Assembly (NCBI GenBank): GCA_017456015.1
Contig: JAFTLL010000004.1
Coordinates: 124,001-188,000, forward strand
DNA from: Clostridia bacterium
GTDB taxonomy: Bacteria; Bacillota_A; Clostridia; Oscillospirales; Acutalibacteraceae
Direction of reading: 5' to 3'
DNA length: 64,000 nucleotides
The notes under the pieces are model-generated. The model saw only the letters and a list, made by a program, of their open reading frames with translations. It ran no database searches and was not told the origin of the DNA. This document shows, in pieces, positions 12,262 through 44,188 of the stretch. How positions within the stretch are numbered: position 1 is the stretch's first letter; each line of letters begins with the position of its first letter. The translations under genes and the position numbers were made by a program.

Positions 12262-12278
12262 CAGATTATCTCTTTGAG
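12262..12278. repeat. Left attachment repeat
   Basis: CAGATTATCTCTTTGAG, identical to 18428-18444. On the minus strand it spells the Ser-Lys-Arg-stop end of rpsI, but here it is detached from the gene. Confidence 0.88.
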
Positions 12279-12391: not shown

Positions 12392-12412
12392 TTTGCACCA
12401 AATTTGCACCAA
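12392..12412 (+). repeat. Paired TTTGCACCAA repeats, left end
   Basis: Two copies of TTTGCACCAA, 11 nt apart start to start, 114 nt inside the left att core. The same pair with the same pitch occurs at the right end, as expected for arm-type sites of a Tn916/lambda-like integrase. Confidence 0.75.
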
Positions 12413-12416
12413 GATT

Positions 12417-13238
12417 TTATATCAATCCTACCAATGTACTATCTTTTACAACAGCAGACGGATTGTACTTTTCTACGAGATTTTGAACAATGATTTTGTT
12501 GCCTGCACTTATTTTAGGACTCAATGTGATTTCCATTTCGCAATAAGCATTGTCATCTATACTCATATCGTAAAATGGGAACGGTTGCTTTTCTAAACCT
12601 TGAAGTATCTTGTTACCCATAATTTGAGCGGCTTGTGCCAATGTTTCTACGGGTTGATTTAAATTTAAAGGAAATAACATAAGTATATATCTCCATTCGT
12701 TTTGGAAAGACCAGTGTGTGTTTTTATATTTACCCAATCTTCCTAATGCAATTGAAAATTTATCTCCATCAAAATCAACTAATTTTGGATATAATTTATC
12801 ATGGTCTGCTGAATATTTAACCTTATGTAATATATTTTCTGGTGTTGCGCCTGCTGATATATAGTTTCTTCGGAACATATCTGCAAAAGGAATTAAAGAT
12901 TTTAAGGGAGTGCCGTTTGTATTATCAGTAATAGGTGCATTAATTACTTGCCGTAACTCATCAGCGGTGTTTTCATGTAACTTGAAAGGGTTTTTCTTTA
13001 ATCGTATTCTAACACCTGAATTGATAGAAGTATACATATTCCACATAGGTATACTTTCAGCAACATCATCTGTCCAAGAACTTATATAACAAAACTGACC
13101 TGCATTTTTTAAATCGGCTGTTTCTTGTTCTTGTAAATCATCCATTTTATCTAAAGAATTAAAACGGAAAGTATGGTTTTGTAAAATAAGTGCAAGAGTC
13201 TCAATGTTAGTGTAGTGATATAAATATTCATTTTCCAT
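12417..13238 (-). CDS. DUF2971 domain protein
   Basis: A 273-residue soluble protein with the DUF2971 signature: YLYHYTNIETLALIL at the N-terminus, FRFNSLDKMDDLQE near 28, then CYISSWTDD and PMWNMY motifs. The biochemical function is unknown; members are common in mobile islands and have been suggested as defence or abortive-infection components, which is only an inference here. The second ATG (13238) is preferred, 6 nt after AGAGGT; an ATG 6 nt upstream is too close. It is the leftmost gene of the element and its stop lies 5 nt from the arm repeats. Confidence 0.8.
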   Translation of the reverse strand: MENEYLYHYTNIETLALILQNHTFRFNSLDKMDDLQEQETADLKNAGQFCYISSWTDDVAESIPMWNMYTSINSGVRIRLKKNPFKLHENTADELRQVINAPITDNTNGTPLKSLIPFADMFRRNYISAGATPENILHKVKYSADHDKLYPKLVDFDGDKFSIALGRLGKYKNTHWSFQNEWRYILMLFPLNLNQPVETLAQAAQIMGNKILQGLEKQPFPFYDMSIDDNAYCEMEITLSPKISAGNKIIVQNLVEKYNPSAVVKDSTLVGLI

Positions 13239-13313
13239 ATACATACCTCTAATATTGTTTTGTAGTTTCGGTTGATTATCCGCATAAATTATATCATAAA
13301 CAGTAAAATTTGT

Positions 13314-13363: not shown

Positions 13364-14384
13364 TTAAGAAATGAGTTCATCTTCAAGACACTTTGCTATT
13401 CTCGCCTTGTATTCCTCAAAAATGTGGGAATAAATATCTCCCGTGATTGCAATATTGCAATGGCCTAAATGCTCGGAAACCGCTTTAACATCAATGCCGT
13501 TATTTATCATAAGACTTGCATTGCTATGTCGGAGCCCGTGTGCACTTATAATGGGCATATCGTTGCTTGAAAGGATTTTTTTGAGTTCCTTGTTCACATA
13601 TGACCTGTCATAGAAGTTACCTATTACAGAGGTAAATACAATGTCAGGGTGTGCCCAATTATTGCCTACAATCTCTTTTAACTTGTCTTGCTCTCGTTTA
13701 TGTCTTAACAACAATTCCTTTGTGTATGTGCCGAGTTTGAGTGTTCTGTAACTTGTATTGGTCTTTGGTGCTGCCAAAAACCACTTATCATCTGCAAAAC
13801 ATAAGGTGTTTTCTATTGTTATTGTGTTGAGGGTACTGTATTCGCTTGTTAGTTGCATAAGTTTTTGACATTGTTGCTTGTTTAGATATTTAATTTTTTT
13901 CTTATTGACATTATCTTTCTTATGCAATGCACCAACACACGGATTCTCTTTTATGTACCCTTGCTTGACTCCGTATGCAAAAACACTTGATACAATCGTC
14001 TTTAATTTACGAGTGGTTTCAGGTGCTTTGTCAAGACCTAAAAAGAATTTAGTTAACGATTGAGTGGTTATATCTTTGATTTTTTTATTCGCAAACACAG
14101 GCAAAATATGAATTTCCAAGTCACGTTTATAATTGTATGTGGTGACGGGTTTTAATTCGTTTTCTGCATATTGTTTAATGAATATTTCCACCAATTCTTT
14201 AAATCTCATATTCTCATTAAGGTCTTGTGAATATTTGCACTTGTTAGCAAATTCTATATACGCTTGCATAACAAGTTTTTCCGCTTTTGTGGGCGGTGTG
14301 CCTTCTGGCACCTTGAAAGTCATAGTTTGAAACTGTAAAACGATAGGTATTCGGACCTCGTTGTACTACACCTTTTATATCCAT
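13364..14384 (-). pseudogene. Tn916-type tyrosine integrase, broken
   Basis: The original start is the ATG at 14384 after GAAAGGAAG; it encodes an arm-DNA-binding N-terminus (MDIKGVVQRGPNTYRF) but runs out of frame with the body, which reads from about 14323 (MTFKVPEG). The body keeps Lys-187, HGLRH with His-262/Arg-265, LGH with His-288 and Tyr-298 (numbered from MTFK). The segment that should carry the first catalytic Arg (family pattern TGMRxGE...LxWxDI) is absent: YSTLNT runs straight into ITIENTL, a loss of about 30 residues at a repeated ACAATA. Two independent lesions make it very unlikely to recombine DNA. It most probably created the rpsI insertion. Confidence 0.82.
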
Positions 14385-14399
14385 ATTTTACTTCCTTTC

Positions 14400-14609
14400 T
14401 TAACTAACATAATCTAAATTTGATAGTTCTTTACACAATAAATCAAAGTTAATAAATGCTTTTTTGCCCGAATATATGGCAGGGATTTTATTTTCCCTTA
14501 ACATATTTCTTATAGCACTTTCAGGCAAAATTCCTGTTGCTGCCACTTGACGAACTGTCATCATTCGTGGTAAGTGAGGAGTATTGTTTTTATTTGCCAT
14601 ATTACTCAT
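14400..14609 (-). CDS. Excisionase-like small DNA-binding protein
   Basis: A 69-residue protein whose core, LPRMMTVRQVAATGILPE followed by SAIRNMLRENKIPAI and a YSGKKAFINFD wing, fits the winged-helix fold of Xis/MerR-like excisionases found next to Tn916-family integrases. The start overlaps the stop of the upstream gene (ATGAGTAA), implying translational coupling; an ATG 9 nt further in (14600) is an alternative. It would normally direct integrase toward excision, but its partner is broken. Confidence 0.7.
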   Translation of the reverse strand: MSNMANKNNTPHLPRMMTVRQVAATGILPESAIRNMLRENKIPAIYSGKKAFINFDLLCKELSNLDYVS

Positions 14610-15015
14610 CCTTTCCCACTTCATCATTGACAAAATCAAATGAAAGTTGCTCATACTCGTCAAAATCGGGTTGAGCATCCATATCGTCAATAGGATGTGT
14701 TTCTTCCTTAAATTCTTTTGGTGCAATAGATACACCGATTGCTTTGTAACTCTTTTTGCCGTCTTTATATCTAACCTCGGCAACGATAGTAACAAAGCGA
14801 CCTTTGGTGTGTTCGGTTAGTTTTTTGTAATCTATACCTGTATCATTTTCAAAACACATGGCCGATACGAGAGGAGCCTTATTGCCACGAATATCCGTGT
14901 TAGCAAGGAAAGATACAGAGTTATAACTACCTCTATCTGTAACCGAACGAACATAATCTCTAAATAAAACAAATTCTTTTTCTGTGCCTGTATATAGGCG
15001 GGTGGGATTTAACAT
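14602..15015 (-). CDS. Element-encoded protein of unknown function
   Basis: A 137-residue acidic-tailed protein that I do not recognise. It starts MLNPTRLYTGTEKEF after AAAGGAGAC, with a beta-rich middle (GRFVTIVAEVRYKDGKKSYKA reading as alternating strands) and an Asp/Glu-rich tail. A single-stranded DNA-binding OB fold is conceivable from the beta-strand pattern and acidic tail but not demonstrated. It precedes and overlaps the excisionase-like gene, so it belongs to the recombination module. A terminator-like hairpin sits in its leader. Confidence 0.7.
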   Translation of the reverse strand: MLNPTRLYTGTEKEFVLFRDYVRSVTDRGSYNSVSFLANTDIRGNKAPLVSAMCFENDTGIDYKKLTEHTKGRFVTIVAEVRYKDGKKSYKAIGVSIAPKEFKEETHPIDDMDAQPDFDEYEQLSFDFVNDEVGKDE

Positions 15016-15057
15016 AATAATGTCTCCTTTTTTAAAAATATTTTTGAGGGAAACAAA

Positions 15058-15105
15058 CAGATAAAGAAAAAGACAGAATACACCGAGGCAATCCTCGGTG
15101 TATTC
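15058..15105 (-). terminator. Attenuator/terminator hairpin in the leader of the 137-residue gene
   Basis: Perfect 13-bp stem (15076-15088 with 15093-15105), 4-nt loop, followed leftward by TGTCTTTTTCTTT. It lies between the second recombinase gene and the next gene, so it either separates them or attenuates read-through. An in-frame AUG at its foot (15114) would allow a 33-codon leader continuous with the gene. Confidence 0.7.
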
Positions 15106-15220
15106 CGCCTTCATATATTAAATTCCACCAATTAAAAAATTAAAATAAAAACCTAAAAAATCTATGTGTAAGTAACCCTACAATATTAAGTTTAACTATA
15201 GTTTTTCATTTGTCAAGAAT

Positions 15221-16234
15221 TTATAAGAATTTTTTTATTTTTTTTGCACCGAGATAGATTTGTATGATATCGGACCTGTTTTCCGAGCCGTGCGAAAGAC
15301 GAACACAACAATCGCTTTTTGCCGTTTTATCGGCTTTTTCGGGGGAAAGTCCCAACTCAAGATAATGTTGATATTGCTTGTTATAATAGGTTTGTATTGC
15401 CGCCTTACGTATTGAATGATTGCCACTTTTCAAGACCGTCTTTGTGCCGATAGTCTTTGCTTGTGGGGTTGTGATTGAAAGGGCGGCAAGTTTTCTATTT
15501 AACCAACGATTCGCAGAATTAGGTTTGATGTTGCCAAATAAGGAATCATTATCTCCTTTGCCCGATGTGAGTAAACGGCAGAAAGAATAAAATTCCTTGT
15601 CAGTGACCTCAATTAAATTTTGACGGCCACCCTTATCCTTTTCGAGTAACACACTAACCGTTTGCCCGTCATCGCCAAAGGTGATGTGTTTTTTCTGCAA
15701 AACTGAAATCTGATTGATTCTGCAGCAAGTGTAAGACGAGAAAATGAAGAAATTGCTTGAATGACAGGGTTTGTCAATAGAGTCTTTTACCTTTTGTACC
15801 TCATCAGGTGTCAAGGCAAATTCTCTTGGACTTGTTCTGTCATAAATAAATTCTGCATTTACCTTTGTTTCAAAATTTGTATGCACCCCAAAATGATGAT
15901 TAATAACCTTTGACAATTTCATTAAATTGCTTTTATAGGTCTCTATTGTGTTGAGCGAACATCCGTCTTTTGATTTACTGTCAAGCCACTCTTGACAATA
16001 TGATTGTTTAATTTGTCGTACCATTTCAATATCGGGGTAATGCTCTTTGATGTATTCGCAGAAGTTGTGTGCCGTATCGAGCAAGTTTGACTTAGCAGAG
16101 AAGCTACACACTCTCCACCCCTGCTCTGCTTGACCGCATTGGTGTTTTGCAGAATGTTTATCATATTTATATGAGAAACATCCTTCTATTGCGGTCAGAC
16201 TCTGCACAAAAAGTGAACGCTGTTTTTTTGACAT
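15221..16234 (-). CDS. Second tyrosine recombinase/integrase
   Basis: A 337-residue tyrosine recombinase with a core-binding N-terminal half and a complete catalytic set: Arg-172 (TCCRINQISVL), Lys-199 in a predicted beta-hairpin, HSIR with His-273/Arg-276, LSH with His-315, and Tyr-327. It is unlike the Tn916-type integrase nearby and belongs to a less familiar group; LSHGSENRSDI replaces the usual LGH-x-x. It could move the element, resolve dimers, or act at another site. AAGGAGTGACAGGGA precedes the ATG. Just upstream is a cluster of hairpins that may be its target or an origin. Confidence 0.82.
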   Translation of the reverse strand: MSKKQRSLFVQSLTAIEGCFSYKYDKHSAKHQCGQAEQGWRVCSFSAKSNLLDTAHNFCEYIKEHYPDIEMVRQIKQSYCQEWLDSKSKDGCSLNTIETYKSNLMKLSKVINHHFGVHTNFETKVNAEFIYDRTSPREFALTPDEVQKVKDSIDKPCHSSNFFIFSSYTCCRINQISVLQKKHITFGDDGQTVSVLLEKDKGGRQNLIEVTDKEFYSFCRLLTSGKGDNDSLFGNIKPNSANRWLNRKLAALSITTPQAKTIGTKTVLKSGNHSIRKAAIQTYYNKQYQHYLELGLSPEKADKTAKSDCCVRLSHGSENRSDIIQIYLGAKKIKKFL

Positions 16235-16860
16235 TCCCTGTCACTCCTTTCTTAAATGTTGTCTGTCGGCATTGTCGGTTTGTTGTCACAAACCGTTAAT
16301 GCCAACAGAAATACCGCTATTTATTGTTCAGATGAAGACAAGGGACACCCCTTGCCAAATGTATAGTGGTGCAATTTCCACCATACCAAAGGTCACCGCA
16401 TTGGTGACAAGTCAACCAACCCTACATAGCACTCGGATTAAGATTGACGGTACCTCCGTTTTTCGTTTGGACATTTCCATTCACTTCAAAACGGTGATAC
16501 AGGTTTGACCTCATTAGGTCAAATGTTTCTTTTGTAATTCCACCTTCATATAACTTTAATATGTGTGTATTTATTTAATTCCTCCTTCTTAAATTTAAAA
16601 GTAACATGTAAACAATATATAGATTTGTTTTTTATTTCAAGTAATCTTCTTATAACTCTAAAAAATCTAAAGGATTCTTTGTTCTTTTAACAATCTTCAT
16701 AACCCTAATTACTCTATGTTTAAGATAAAGACTCATAATGCTTATATTAATCATGATGATTAATAAGAGTCTTATATAAAGAAAAAGAGTCATAACGATT
16801 CTATAAAGAATCATCATGACTCATAAGGATTGCGGAAATTGTCGTAAATTTTTATAAAAA
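16235..16860. other. Non-coding hairpin and iteron-like region of the element
   Basis: About 620 nt without a convincing gene. Seen: an imperfect 18-bp-arm hairpin (16265-16282 with 16289-16306); GTCACC/GGTGAC (16392-16408); an 8-bp hairpin TTTGACCT/AGGTCAAA (16504-16523); a 10-bp-arm palindrome around G16755 (16745-16765) flanked by GACTC/GAGTC; and three copies of ASTCATAANGMTT (16731, 16788, 16819). Successive hairpins plus short direct repeats in AT-rich DNA suggest an origin (transfer or replication) or a recombinase target. A 78-codon open frame at 16272-16508 has no SD and was not accepted. Confidence 0.5.
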
Positions 16861-16862
16861 CA

Positions 16863-16891
16863 TTGATAATATACAGGGCTTGTGGTATAAT
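16863..16891 (+). promoter_or_regulatory. Promoter of the structured RNA
   Basis: TTGATA, 17-nt spacer, TATAAT. Predicted start near G16898, the first base of the long stem. Confidence 0.8.
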
Positions 16892-16897
16892 ATCGGT

Positions 16898-17037
16898 GCT
16901 ACACATTTTGAATATGCCTAATTAGAGGGAATACTATTTGGTAAAAATGTATTCTCTCCCCTTTGATTAGGCAAAATGTGTAGCAACATTGAGGGAAGCA
17001 TTTTTCGGTGCGTCTCTTAATGGGACGCACTTTTTTA
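16898..17037 (+). ncRNA. Structured RNA, about 140 nt, unknown class
   Basis: Begins at the predicted transcription start. An extended hairpin covers 16898-16984: stem 1 of 13 bp (16898-16910 with 16972-16984), a 5-nt one-sided bulge, stem 2 of 7 bp (16916-16922 with 16966-16972, sharing one base), stem 3 of 10 bp with one mismatch (16925-16934 with 16949-16958) and a 14-nt loop. A purine-rich linker leads to a strong intrinsic terminator (17008-17036). It is either a small RNA made on its own or an attenuating leader of the next gene, whose ATG is 19 nt past the terminator. It does not match TPP, T-box or 6S RNA as I know them. Confidence 0.65.
17008..17036 (+). terminator. Terminator/attenuator of the structured RNA
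   Basis: Nine-bp stem (17008-17016 with 17022-17030, one G-T pair), 5-nt loop, TTTTTT. Lies before the zinc-ribbon gene. Confidence 0.88.
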
Positions 17038-17055
17038 TAAAGATAGGGGGTTCTT

Positions 17056-17922
17056 ATGGAGTTAAACAGATTTATACCCTTGTATGTGACTTATCGTTGT
17101 TCTAAATGCGGCAACACAGTTGTTACTAACCATATTGTTCGTGAAACCACTACTGCAACAAATAACGATACTGTTGTTTGGCAGGGGACCAAAGAAGATT
17201 TCAACAATATGGATGGCAAAAAAGAATTAGAACCTGGCAGGAGAATTAAAAAAATATTTGCCGAAGAAGAAAAAGGATTATATCGTTTAGCTGAGTTCAA
17301 CTGCAAATGTGGTCATTGTAACCATAAGGAATCTTGGTCAAAAATGCGATATTATGTTTTTGATGCAGTTTTTGGCACACTTCTACCACTTGCGATTCTG
17401 CTTACCATTGTTGCCTTTCCCATTGGAATATGGCTATTAGGCGTTGAAGCAATTTATCTATCCATAAAGCATTTACATAGAGCATTTATGGAAAAAAGAA
17501 TAAAAAAGTTACCTAAATTAAGTTTACCTTGTATTTCTTTGTTGCCGCAGGAATCGGTTCAACTTTTTAAAAACAAATTGGCAGATGAAAAAGCCGAACA
17601 AAAGGCAACACCAGAACCCGTTGAAGAAAAGATTACATCTAACGAATATTTATCAGAAAACGAAAAGGCTAAATCTTTTGCGAAAAACGAATATGATGTA
17701 ATAATTAAATATTGGGCTCAAATCTATACTGTTTCACAAAGCAATGATTTAGATGAAAGTATTAGGGAACAAGTTGTTTCGGGTTTATGGAACAAGATAA
17801 GGGTAGAAAAAGACGAATCTTTTATTAGAAAGTTAAAAGTTTTCAGGTCATATATTAACGAAGATGTTTTGGCTTCTGAATTAAATATAGTTGCTCGTTT
17901 TTATGATGGAGAATTCAAATAA
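17056..17922 (+). CDS. Split zinc-ribbon membrane protein of unknown function
   Basis: A 288-residue protein not recognised. C15-x-x-C18 and C85-x-x-C88 (with Cys-83) look like two halves of a zinc ribbon separated by a 66-residue insert. One or two hydrophobic segments follow (about 104-135, FGTLLPLAILLTIVAFPIGI and onward), then a charged cytoplasmic-type tail with a Lys/Glu-rich linker (170-205) and a helical C-terminal domain. GGGGG lies 5 nt before the ATG. Codon use is AT-rich like the rest of the element. It follows the structured RNA and precedes a small membrane protein, so the three may act together. Confidence 0.75.
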   Translation: MELNRFIPLYVTYRCSKCGNTVVTNHIVRETTTATNNDTVVWQGTKEDFNNMDGKKELEPGRRIKKIFAEEEKGLYRLAEFNCKCGHCNHKESWSKMRYYVFDAVFGTLLPLAILLTIVAFPIGIWLLGVEAIYLSIKHLHRAFMEKRIKKLPKLSLPCISLLPQESVQLFKNKLADEKAEQKATPEPVEEKITSNEYLSENEKAKSFAKNEYDVIIKYWAQIYTVSQSNDLDESIREQVVSGLWNKIRVEKDESFIRKLKVFRSYINEDVLASELNIVARFYDGEFK

Positions 17923-17941
17923 ATTGTGAGGAGAAAAAGAA

Positions 17942-18277
17942 ATGGCATTTTTTATTATTTTATTATTCTTAATTCCCGTGGTTATCTATTTTGTTCGTTA
18001 TAGTTTTAGCAGGATTAATATGGACAACTGTTCGAGATTAGACCCCAATGCTACGATTGTTGGTGTTCGTAGCGAGAATGACAATTGGGGTAAATACAAA
18101 CATATTAAGACAATAGTGCAATTTTCTGATGGTTCTGAATACCATACATATTATACCCGACAGGAGCCTGGCTTTGGATATACAAGAATTATTGTAGATG
18201 CCGAAGTAATTGAAGAAATTAAAGAAAAGGCAATTATTGCACACAAGAAAAAGGTAGAAAAAGAAAGCAGCAACTAA
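17942..18277 (+). CDS. Small membrane-anchored protein of unknown function
   Basis: A 111-residue protein with an N-terminal membrane helix (about 2-19), then a small beta-rich domain (ATIVGVRSEND, KTIVQFSDGSEYHTYY) and a Lys-rich helical tail. The strand pattern is like small domains of unknown function found in many membrane proteins. GAGGAG precedes the ATG; the gene is 19 nt after the zinc-ribbon gene, so both are translated from one message. No function can be assigned. Confidence 0.72.
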   Translation: MAFFIILLFLIPVVIYFVRYSFSRINMDNCSRLDPNATIVGVRSENDNWGKYKHIKTIVQFSDGSEYHTYYTRQEPGFGYTRIIVDAEVIEEIKEKAIIAHKKKVEKESSN

Positions 18278-18290
18278 TGTATCACAAAAA

Positions 18291-18327
18291 GACACTCTGC
18301 GACTTTAATGGTCGTAGAGTGTCTTTT
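18291..18327 (+). terminator. Terminator of the cargo operon
   Basis: Thirteen-position stem with one mismatch (18291-18303 with 18311-18323), 7-nt loop, then TTTTAAT. Confidence 0.82.
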
Positions 18328-18332
18328 AATAA

Positions 18333-18353
18333 TTTGCACCAAGTTTGCACCAA
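18333..18353 (+). repeat. Paired TTTGCACCAA repeats, right end
   Basis: TTTGCACCAA at 18333-18342 and 18344-18353, 11 nt apart as at the left end, 75 nt inside the right att core. Same orientation on the plus strand as the left pair. Confidence 0.75.
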
Positions 18354-18375
18354 AGTTAAATTTTGAGCAAAAGTA

Positions 18376-18408
18376 AAACCCCGAAAACCGTGATGGTTTC
18401 GGGGTTTT
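18376..18408 (-). terminator. Element-borne terminator now serving rpsI
   Basis: Long stem AAACCCCGAAAACC / GGTTTCGGGGTTT (one bulged base), placed about 25 nt past the rpsI stop on the element side. It replaces the host terminator left behind at 12215-12244. The plus-strand TTTTTG tail suggests it can also act rightward. Confidence 0.75.
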
Positions 18409-18427
18409 TGATGTTCTTGAAAGATAA

Positions 18428-18444
18428 CAGATTATCTCTTTGAG
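18428..18444. repeat. Right attachment repeat (within rpsI 3' end)
   Basis: CAGATTATCTCTTTGAG, identical to 12262-12278. Contains the rpsI stop codon and the codons for Lys and Arg plus most of Ser, so insertion leaves S9 intact. Confidence 0.88.
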
Positions 18445-18830
18445 AACTGGGGTGCGCGACGGGCGCCTTTAAGACCGTATTTCTTACGCTCTTTCATTCT
18501 CGGGTCACGGGTCAAGAAGCCGGCTTTCTTCAAAGCAGGACGCAACTCTGCATCATATTGAAGCAGGGCACGGGCAACACCGTGACGGATGGCACCGGCC
18601 TGGCCGGTAACACCGCCGCCGCCAACGCGGCAAACAATGTCAAACTTATCGCTTGTACCGGTAAGGGCCAGCGGCTGACGAACAATCAGCTTTAAGGTTT
18701 CAAGGCCGAAATAATCGTCGATATCTCTATCGTTAATGGTTACTTTACCGGTTCCGTTATAGATACGAACTCTGGCAACCGAGCTTTTTCTTCTGCCGGT
18801 GCCGTAAAAATAAGGCTTGCTTTCAAACAT
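18432..18830 (-). CDS. rpsI: 30S ribosomal protein S9 (uS9)
   Basis: A 132-residue small-subunit protein whose C-terminal tail reaches the P-site tRNA. Seen: [15 protein letters not shown] near 10, [20 protein letters not shown] near 72, and the invariant C-terminal QFSKR. GGGAGGAT precedes the ATG. Second gene of the rplM-rpsI operon (18-nt gap). The gene end is the attachment site of the element, which regenerates the last codons exactly. Confidence 0.98.
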
Positions 18831-44048: not shown

Positions 44049-44077
44049 TTTTAAAACTGCATAAGTGAGCATATGAT

Positions 44078-44180
44078 GCTTGCGATAGGGGAGCTGGTAA
44101 TTCAGCCGGCTGAGATGGTGCGTTGTCGCATCGGACCCTTGAACCTGATTCGGATAATGCCGACGTAGGGAGTGTACCGT
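44078..44180 (+). promoter_or_regulatory. TPP riboswitch (THI element)
   Basis: Contains the conserved aptamer pieces in order: GGGGAGCTGG, CCGGCTGAGATGG with CTGAGA of the pyrimidine-sensor loop, ACCCTTGAACCTGATTCGG, and GATAATGCCGACGTAGGGA. Binding of thiamine pyrophosphate should favour the terminator hairpin just downstream and switch off thiT. Confidence 0.96.
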
Positions 44181-44188
44181 AAAGTAGA

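Follow-up and report, generated by a model that had tools for sequence, protein, structure and literature searches.

We propose that the DNA at 16863-17036 is the 5' leader of an operon of two genes, ORF1 and ORF2, and that this leader works as a bistable transcription attenuator, a reading based on model folding of its transcript to which we give a probability of about 0.55. A promoter, a long hairpin, an intrinsic terminator, an antiterminator of near-equal energy, the lack of any other promoter-like site before ORF1 and the location in an integrase island were all computed (Table 1). Positions are those of the window, which is the whole 64-kb stretch of DNA analysed.

In the proposed mechanism, the polymerase would start at 16898, make the long hairpin and then enter a stretch with two exclusive folds. 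Pairing of 16987-17002 with 17007-17022 (the antiterminator) would lead to read-through into ORF1, and pairing of 17007-17016 with 17022-17031 (the terminator) would release a stable RNA of ~139 nt. The 5' hairpin would serve as a cap for the 5' end of the RNA and shield the switch from upstream sequence, and it is the likely docking site of whatever sets the switch. In vivo, the switch would work under the control of a factor, and the operon would be a cargo whose product is kept low, possibly for defence. The ~139-nt RNA may act in trans as well.

Table 1. Positions of the leader unit, its operon and the other features of the island in the window.
Feature	Position	Strand	Basis or detail
Left 17-bp direct repeat of island	12262-12278	.	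repeat search
DUF2971 protein	12417-13244	-	PF11185, above its cut-off
Tyrosine integrase of island	13364-14323	-	PF00589, E 4.3e-15
Small excisionase-like protein	14400-14609	-	weak assignment
ORF without family assignment	14602-15114	-	
Second tyrosine-recombinase-like protein, divergent from the unit	15221-16234	-	PHROG 1, E 1.7e-11
Promoter, TTGATA-17-TATAAT, with TGG just before -10 (extended -10)	16863-16891	+	11/12 consensus positions
Long 5' hairpin	16897-16985	+	perfect 14-nt arms at the base, a 6-nt bulge on the 5' side, two competing registers in the upper stems
Antiterminator hairpin	16987-17022	+	predicted fold; 16987-16996/17013-17022 and 16998-17002/17007-17011, mismatch 16997/17012
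Intrinsic terminator	17007-17036	+	10-bp stem 17007-17016/17022-17031, then T5
Shine-Dalgarno of ORF1, AGGGGG	17045-17050	+	ATG at 17056
ORF1, 288 aa	17056-17922	+	paired Cys motifs; hydrophobic helices in the centre (by eye and model); C-terminal part helical
ORF2, 111 aa	17942-18277	+	an N- and a C-terminal helix, with a small beta part between them
Probable operon terminator after ORF2	18289-18325	+	inverted repeat then T
Right 17-bp direct repeat	18428-18444	.	repeat search; covers rpsI 3' end

Promoter, 5' hairpin and two exclusive predicted folds

The preliminary description saw a promoter, a structured RNA and a terminator at this place, with a near-consensus promoter starting transcription on the first base of the hairpin, and both observations were confirmed. 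The promoter has the top score among 11 promoter-like sites in 15000-18500 (3.5 kb), and it is one of four matches to a strict promoter pattern on both strands of the window. Since shuffled sequences average 13.5 such sites, the count of 11 is not above chance and only the quality and place of this promoter count. The predicted transcription start at 16898 lies 7 nt past the -10 element, at the foot of the hairpin. From the terminator to ORF1 the scan found no further promoter-like site.

The hairpin measures 87 nt from the predicted start. Its basal arms (16897-16910/16972-16985) are complementary at 14 of 14 nt, and a nested pair of 15 nt (16915-16929/16959-16973) is 87% complementary. The RNA of 16890-17040 folds at -58.8 kcal/mol compared with a shuffle mean of -29.4 (z -8.87), none of 200 shuffles being as good, and a perfect inverted repeat of at least 14 nt within 70 nt was found in 1 of 500 island shuffles. 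A three-part hairpin had been drawn at 16898-16984; it is confirmed, except that the apical part has competing registers, with 16954-16963 unpaired at 34-65%. The hairpin is strong, yet it is neither the strongest nor unique in the window: in a GC-corrected fold scan of overlapping 90-nt windows on both strands, the one at 16891 ranked 33rd of 8522.

The terminator was confirmed, with a 10-bp stem followed by T5, and the Shine-Dalgarno sequence does lie just beyond its end at 17036. The first five bases of this Shine-Dalgarno sequence are predicted to be mostly paired in both the terminator and the antiterminator state, which in these models is a possible second brake on ORF1.

Between hairpin and terminator, a purine-rich linker had been noted. 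The linker is present, but it appears to be more than that, as folding of the growing transcript showed that 16987-17002 can pair with 17007-17022 in 15 bp with one mismatch. These modelled folds make the linker a possible antiterminator arm, a point that the preliminary description missed. Because the antiterminator takes the terminator's whole 5' arm (17007-17016), the two folds are mutually exclusive, and the leader has, by prediction only, the alternative of antiterminator and terminator that marks an attenuator.

For the segment 16985-17036 the terminator was ahead by 1.1-2.5 kcal/mol at 25, 37 and 42°C. In a fold running to 17075 the antiterminator was ahead by 0.9 kcal/mol, and in one running to 17130 the terminator was ahead by 1.1 kcal/mol. 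The antiterminator is the minimum for transcripts ending at 17014-17026, before the 3' arm of the terminator is complete, and the terminator is the minimum for those ending at 17032-17050. Since the energy differences of 0.9-2.5 kcal/mol are within model error, we call the leader bistable.

The observed competitor energy was matched by 22 of 5000 dinucleotide-shuffled linkers, 21 of 5000 plainly shuffled linkers and 83 of 12322 22-mers from the island. The terminator at 17007-17036 has the lowest competitor energy (z -3.73) of the 21 terminator-like sites in the window; among the 15 of these 21 that are listed, the 14 others have competitor z values of -1.69 to +0.59. At three other terminator-like sites the competitor reaches 69-106% of the terminator energy, no more than composition gives. 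On these controls the antiterminator signal is moderate (~0.4%). The earlier idea that expression of the downstream genes requires the bypass of a regulatory RNA has gained evidence, both from the stretch free of promoter-like sites between terminator and ORF1 and from the predicted antiterminator of near-equal stability.

A trp-like third state, in which the pyrimidine strand of the hairpin pairs with the linker, was rejected. It folds at -43.3, compared with -61.3 and -62.2 for the other states, and since trapping the linker costs ~18-19 kcal/mol, such a state would need outside help. Pairing of the short RNA in trans with the start regions of seven island genes was also rejected, being no better than in shuffles (z -1.09 to +1.55).

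No Rfam family matched within the unit at gathering score, and seven matches in 16200-17100 (E 0.34-4.9) were all far below their gathering scores, in line with the preliminary description, which recognised no riboswitch or housekeeping RNA. A known riboswitch or T-box class was rejected, as no Rfam aptamer or T-box matched in the unit, and the suggestion of ligand sensing gained no evidence, with no riboswitch family matching the unit. The sole Rfam match at gathering score in the window is a TPP riboswitch at 44077-44188 (63 bits).

The operon and its island

The start of ORF1 at 17056 is backed by its homologues, eight of nine of which begin at the same column (P0009 has 10 extra residues), and the leader is therefore taken as non-coding up to 17055. 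These nine homologues came from a collection of 5.8 billion proteins. All nine share C15, C18, C83, C85 and C88 with ORF1, and four of the homologues, P0006-P0009 (181-197 aa), stop after the central hydrophobic part. Judging from sequence and model, the Cys motifs are probably zinc-binding and the hydrophobic part probably membrane-spanning. ORF2 has 17 homologues, all of them aligned. In the homologue pairs P0008/P0086 and P0005/P0083 the longest contigs of the ORF1 and ORF2 members are equal in size (20755 and 1531, respectively), which suggests that ORF1 and ORF2 travel together.

Neither protein matched a family at its cut-off in Pfam, NCBIfam, PADLOC or PHROGs. For ORF1, the only Pfam matches up to E 1 were SPESP1, DUF4197 and DUF7560, none of which reached its cut-off, and two CxxC families of NCBIfam (E 0.032 and 0.088) were far below theirs. 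A match of ORF1 to an anti-phage model (E 0.0034; 14.8 bits compared with a cut-off of 2000) was not taken as kinship. Fold searches with the structure models of ORF1 (pLDDT 74.9, pTM 0.47) and ORF2 (pLDDT 87.8, pTM 0.73) gave best E values of 2.3 and 0.97, respectively, and none at or below 0.001. Against solved structures, the ORF1 profile gave four chance-level matches (E 0.16-0.99), with its C-terminal helices aligned to clostridial neurotoxin light chains, from which no kinship was drawn, and the ORF2 profile gave two matches at E about 0.1.

The unit had been placed in an island, and this was confirmed by a perfect 17-bp direct repeat, its copies 6166 bp apart, and by a GC content of 34% inside compared with 47% and 49% on the flanks. 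The gene at the right copy is rpsI (PF00380, E 2.1e-51). The integrase island is 6.2 kb in size and has the make-up of an rpsI-site integrative element, a tyrosine integrase together with direct repeats where the target gene ends. Paired TTTGCACCAA repeats lie near both island ends (12392-12412 and 18333-18353), these four being all the exact copies in the window, and they are possible arm sites of the integrase. Distant relatives of the integrase were found on 49 plasmid records, all at less than 60% identity, and relatives of a homologue of the second recombinase on two. The scan of seven island proteins recognised neither a relaxase nor a Rep family. The DUF2971 protein, at the opposite end of the island from the unit, has a weak likeness to the PADLOC candidate defence protein PDC-S31 (E 2.2e-5), and a sequence search of the ORF at 14602 against solved structures gave no match.

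The second recombinase had no Pfam match above cut-off. It belongs to a coherent family of ~331 aa with 61 homologues, 27 of them aligned, which is distinct from the island integrase. The presumed leader of its gene (16235-16660, minus strand) is highly structured (z -6.64), so that folded RNA would stand at the head of both divergent transcripts. Ahead of the gene, at 16262-16309 in the minus-strand leader, lies a strong hairpin with GGCATTAACG in it. A relative of the family, 26% identical and located through homologue P0035 on the rat-gut plasmid pRGI00546 (3.6 kb), also has a hairpin with GGCATTAACG before its gene (L003 3017-3075); as a chance level, some shared 10-mer arose in 70 of 2000 shuffles. 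The GGCATTAACG hairpin is possibly a recombinase site or control element. Just upstream of the promoter of the unit, two palindromes with GACTC/GAGTC arms lie at 16728-16822 (DNA fold z -4.79), and one of them scores as a minus-strand terminator (16822-16787).

Searches of plasmids and phages by blastn with 16500-18300 and 16700-17055 and by tblastn with ORF1 turned up nothing related to the leader or to the two genes after it, and the single plasmid match, in Photobacterium (E 0.3, 14% of the query), was taken as chance. Relatives of these three were not found either when viral contigs were searched with ORF1, ORF2, the second recombinase, the integrase and alignments A1, A2 and A3, or with 23 nt from the hairpin region, nor when genome contigs were searched with alignment A1 and with a CarD-like protein of the host encoded nearby. 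Homologous leader DNA was thus seen in none of the plasmids, phages, viral contigs or genome contigs searched, and among the titles and abstracts that word searches of open-access papers listed for such units in mobile or defence settings, none described this one.

Alternative readings

By analogy, the unit may be an RNA-protein pair like RCd22-AbiF or the type III toxin-antitoxin systems, a reading to which we give a minor share and which is compatible with attenuation. An abundant short RNA would bind the ORF1 membrane protein and restrain it, leaky read-through would make a little protein, and loss of the RNA would free it. The preliminary description had also thought of an RNA antitoxin, an idea for which the layout speaks: like RCd22-abiF in the excerpted account, the unit has one promoter, a 139-nt RNA (there up to 132 nt), a terminator and a distance from start to ATG of 158 nt (there 168 nt). 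The stable hairpin at the extreme 5' end of the RNA and the DUF2971 protein, a mobile-island neighbour resembling a candidate defence protein, are consistent with such a pair. The identity of the partners does not agree with it, since neither RF03085 nor any other Rfam family matched the RNA, ORF1 has no Abi_2/HEPN or known toxin family, and no tandem RNA repeat occurs in the unit among direct-repeat families within 16235-17060.

A plain leader or small RNA is somewhat less probable still. Here the strong promoter, a protective hairpin and a leaky terminator would fix a low level of ORF1, and the antiterminator would be due to chance or be the relic of a duplication. The linker sequence GGGAAGCATTTTT resembles, by eye, GGGACGCACTTTTTT of the terminator's 3' half, and a duplication of this half could yield the linker pairing without any function; in addition, 0.4-0.7% of random linkers compete equally well. 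Against this stand the 15 bp that use the terminator's entire 5' arm and loop, with the lowest competitor energy of 21 sites.

It is improbable that the hairpin acts as DNA, as a site for the second recombinase, for replication or for transfer while in single-stranded form. Folded as DNA it is strong on the two strands (z -7.9 and -8.2), with the palindromes at 16728-16822 and the recombinase gene adjoining, but the predicted transcription start falls on the foot of the hairpin, and a terminator and a Shine-Dalgarno sequence come next on the same strand. Moreover, the nearest other copies of its arm in the window have 3 mismatches, and the motif common with the distant recombinase plasmid sits at 16294-16303, outside the hairpin. 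The arm copies in the window, with no target duplication seen by eye, also speak against an insertion-sequence or MITE remnant.

Just as little weight is given to a processive antitermination element like canT of Tn916, in which the hairpin RNA would modify the polymerase to pass the terminator. Excerpts of the canT study (PMC11658703) describe an antiterminator from an integrative element of Gram-positive bacteria that acts in cis, probably as RNA, and is placed between the promoter and the terminators. However, canT was studied there mainly as a 452-bp fragment, with 400 bp and some shorter fragments active too, and the large island ORFs after ORF2 are on the minus strand, so that there would be little gain from processive antitermination.

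The attenuator reading may be carried further, with the RNA as a possible partner of the ORF1 membrane protein. We offer the extended version as speculation: a single promoter would give the hairpin RNA and, via the antiterminator switch, a membrane protein with Cys motifs together with its small partner, and the RNA would throttle the operon in cis and restrain the protein in trans, as a membrane-acting counterpart of RCd22-AbiF. If the attenuator reading is right, promoter-RNA-terminator control as in RCd22-abiF would not be tied to HEPN nucleases and would guard probable membrane-protein cargo in integrative islands too. The unit would then be a compact natural switch, the arms of which simple base changes could test, and it would give access to two unannotated protein families (9 and 17 homologues).

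Comparison with known systems

Excerpts of PMC5357655 state that, in streptococci, integrative and mobilizable elements are known to target the 3' end of rpsI. The island has in common with the elements so described its tyrosine integrase and the direct repeats at this site; no relaxase was recognised among its seven proteins scanned. From type III toxin-antitoxin systems (ToxIN and kin) the unit differs in having no tandem repeat family and in that ORF1 belongs to no known endoribonuclease toxin family in Pfam, NCBIfam, PADLOC or PHROGs.

As in attenuators and terminator-type riboswitches, an exclusive antiterminator and terminator are predicted to share one arm between the promoter and the first gene, whereas no known aptamer or T-box of the riboswitch kind matched in the unit. 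IsrK of the Salmonella prophage Gifsy-1, in the excerpts of PMC4825925, is an element-borne RNA with a terminator read-through mRNA and two near-equal folds, and by this description the unit as proposed would be like it in all three respects; the folds of IsrK switch translation, whereas those of the unit are proposed to switch transcription. Tn916 canT, by its excerpted description (PMC11658703), resembles the proposed switch in RNA-based antitermination in an integrative element, and differs in being processive and larger.

RCd22-abiF of Clostridioides difficile phi027 is, on the excerpted text of PMC12373285, the closest described case. It has a SigA promoter, an RNA of up to 132 nt and a terminator with no predicted promoter between, and the ATG lies 168 nt from the start. 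Mostly the short RNA is made, with some read-through. Deletion of RCd22 raises abiF expression 17-fold, and the RNA also binds the AbiF protein in trans. The unit differs from it in three ways. Its RNA has no RF03085 match at gathering score, nor up to E 5 in 16200-17100; instead of an Abi_2 protein, ORF1 is a probable membrane protein that bears Cys motifs and has a small gene as partner; and an antiterminator is proposed here. The two have in common, within what the excerpts cover, one promoter, an RNA of similar length, a terminator, no predicted promoter in between, a similar distance from start to ATG and, taking the host class of the unit from its genes, a place in a mobile element of Clostridia.
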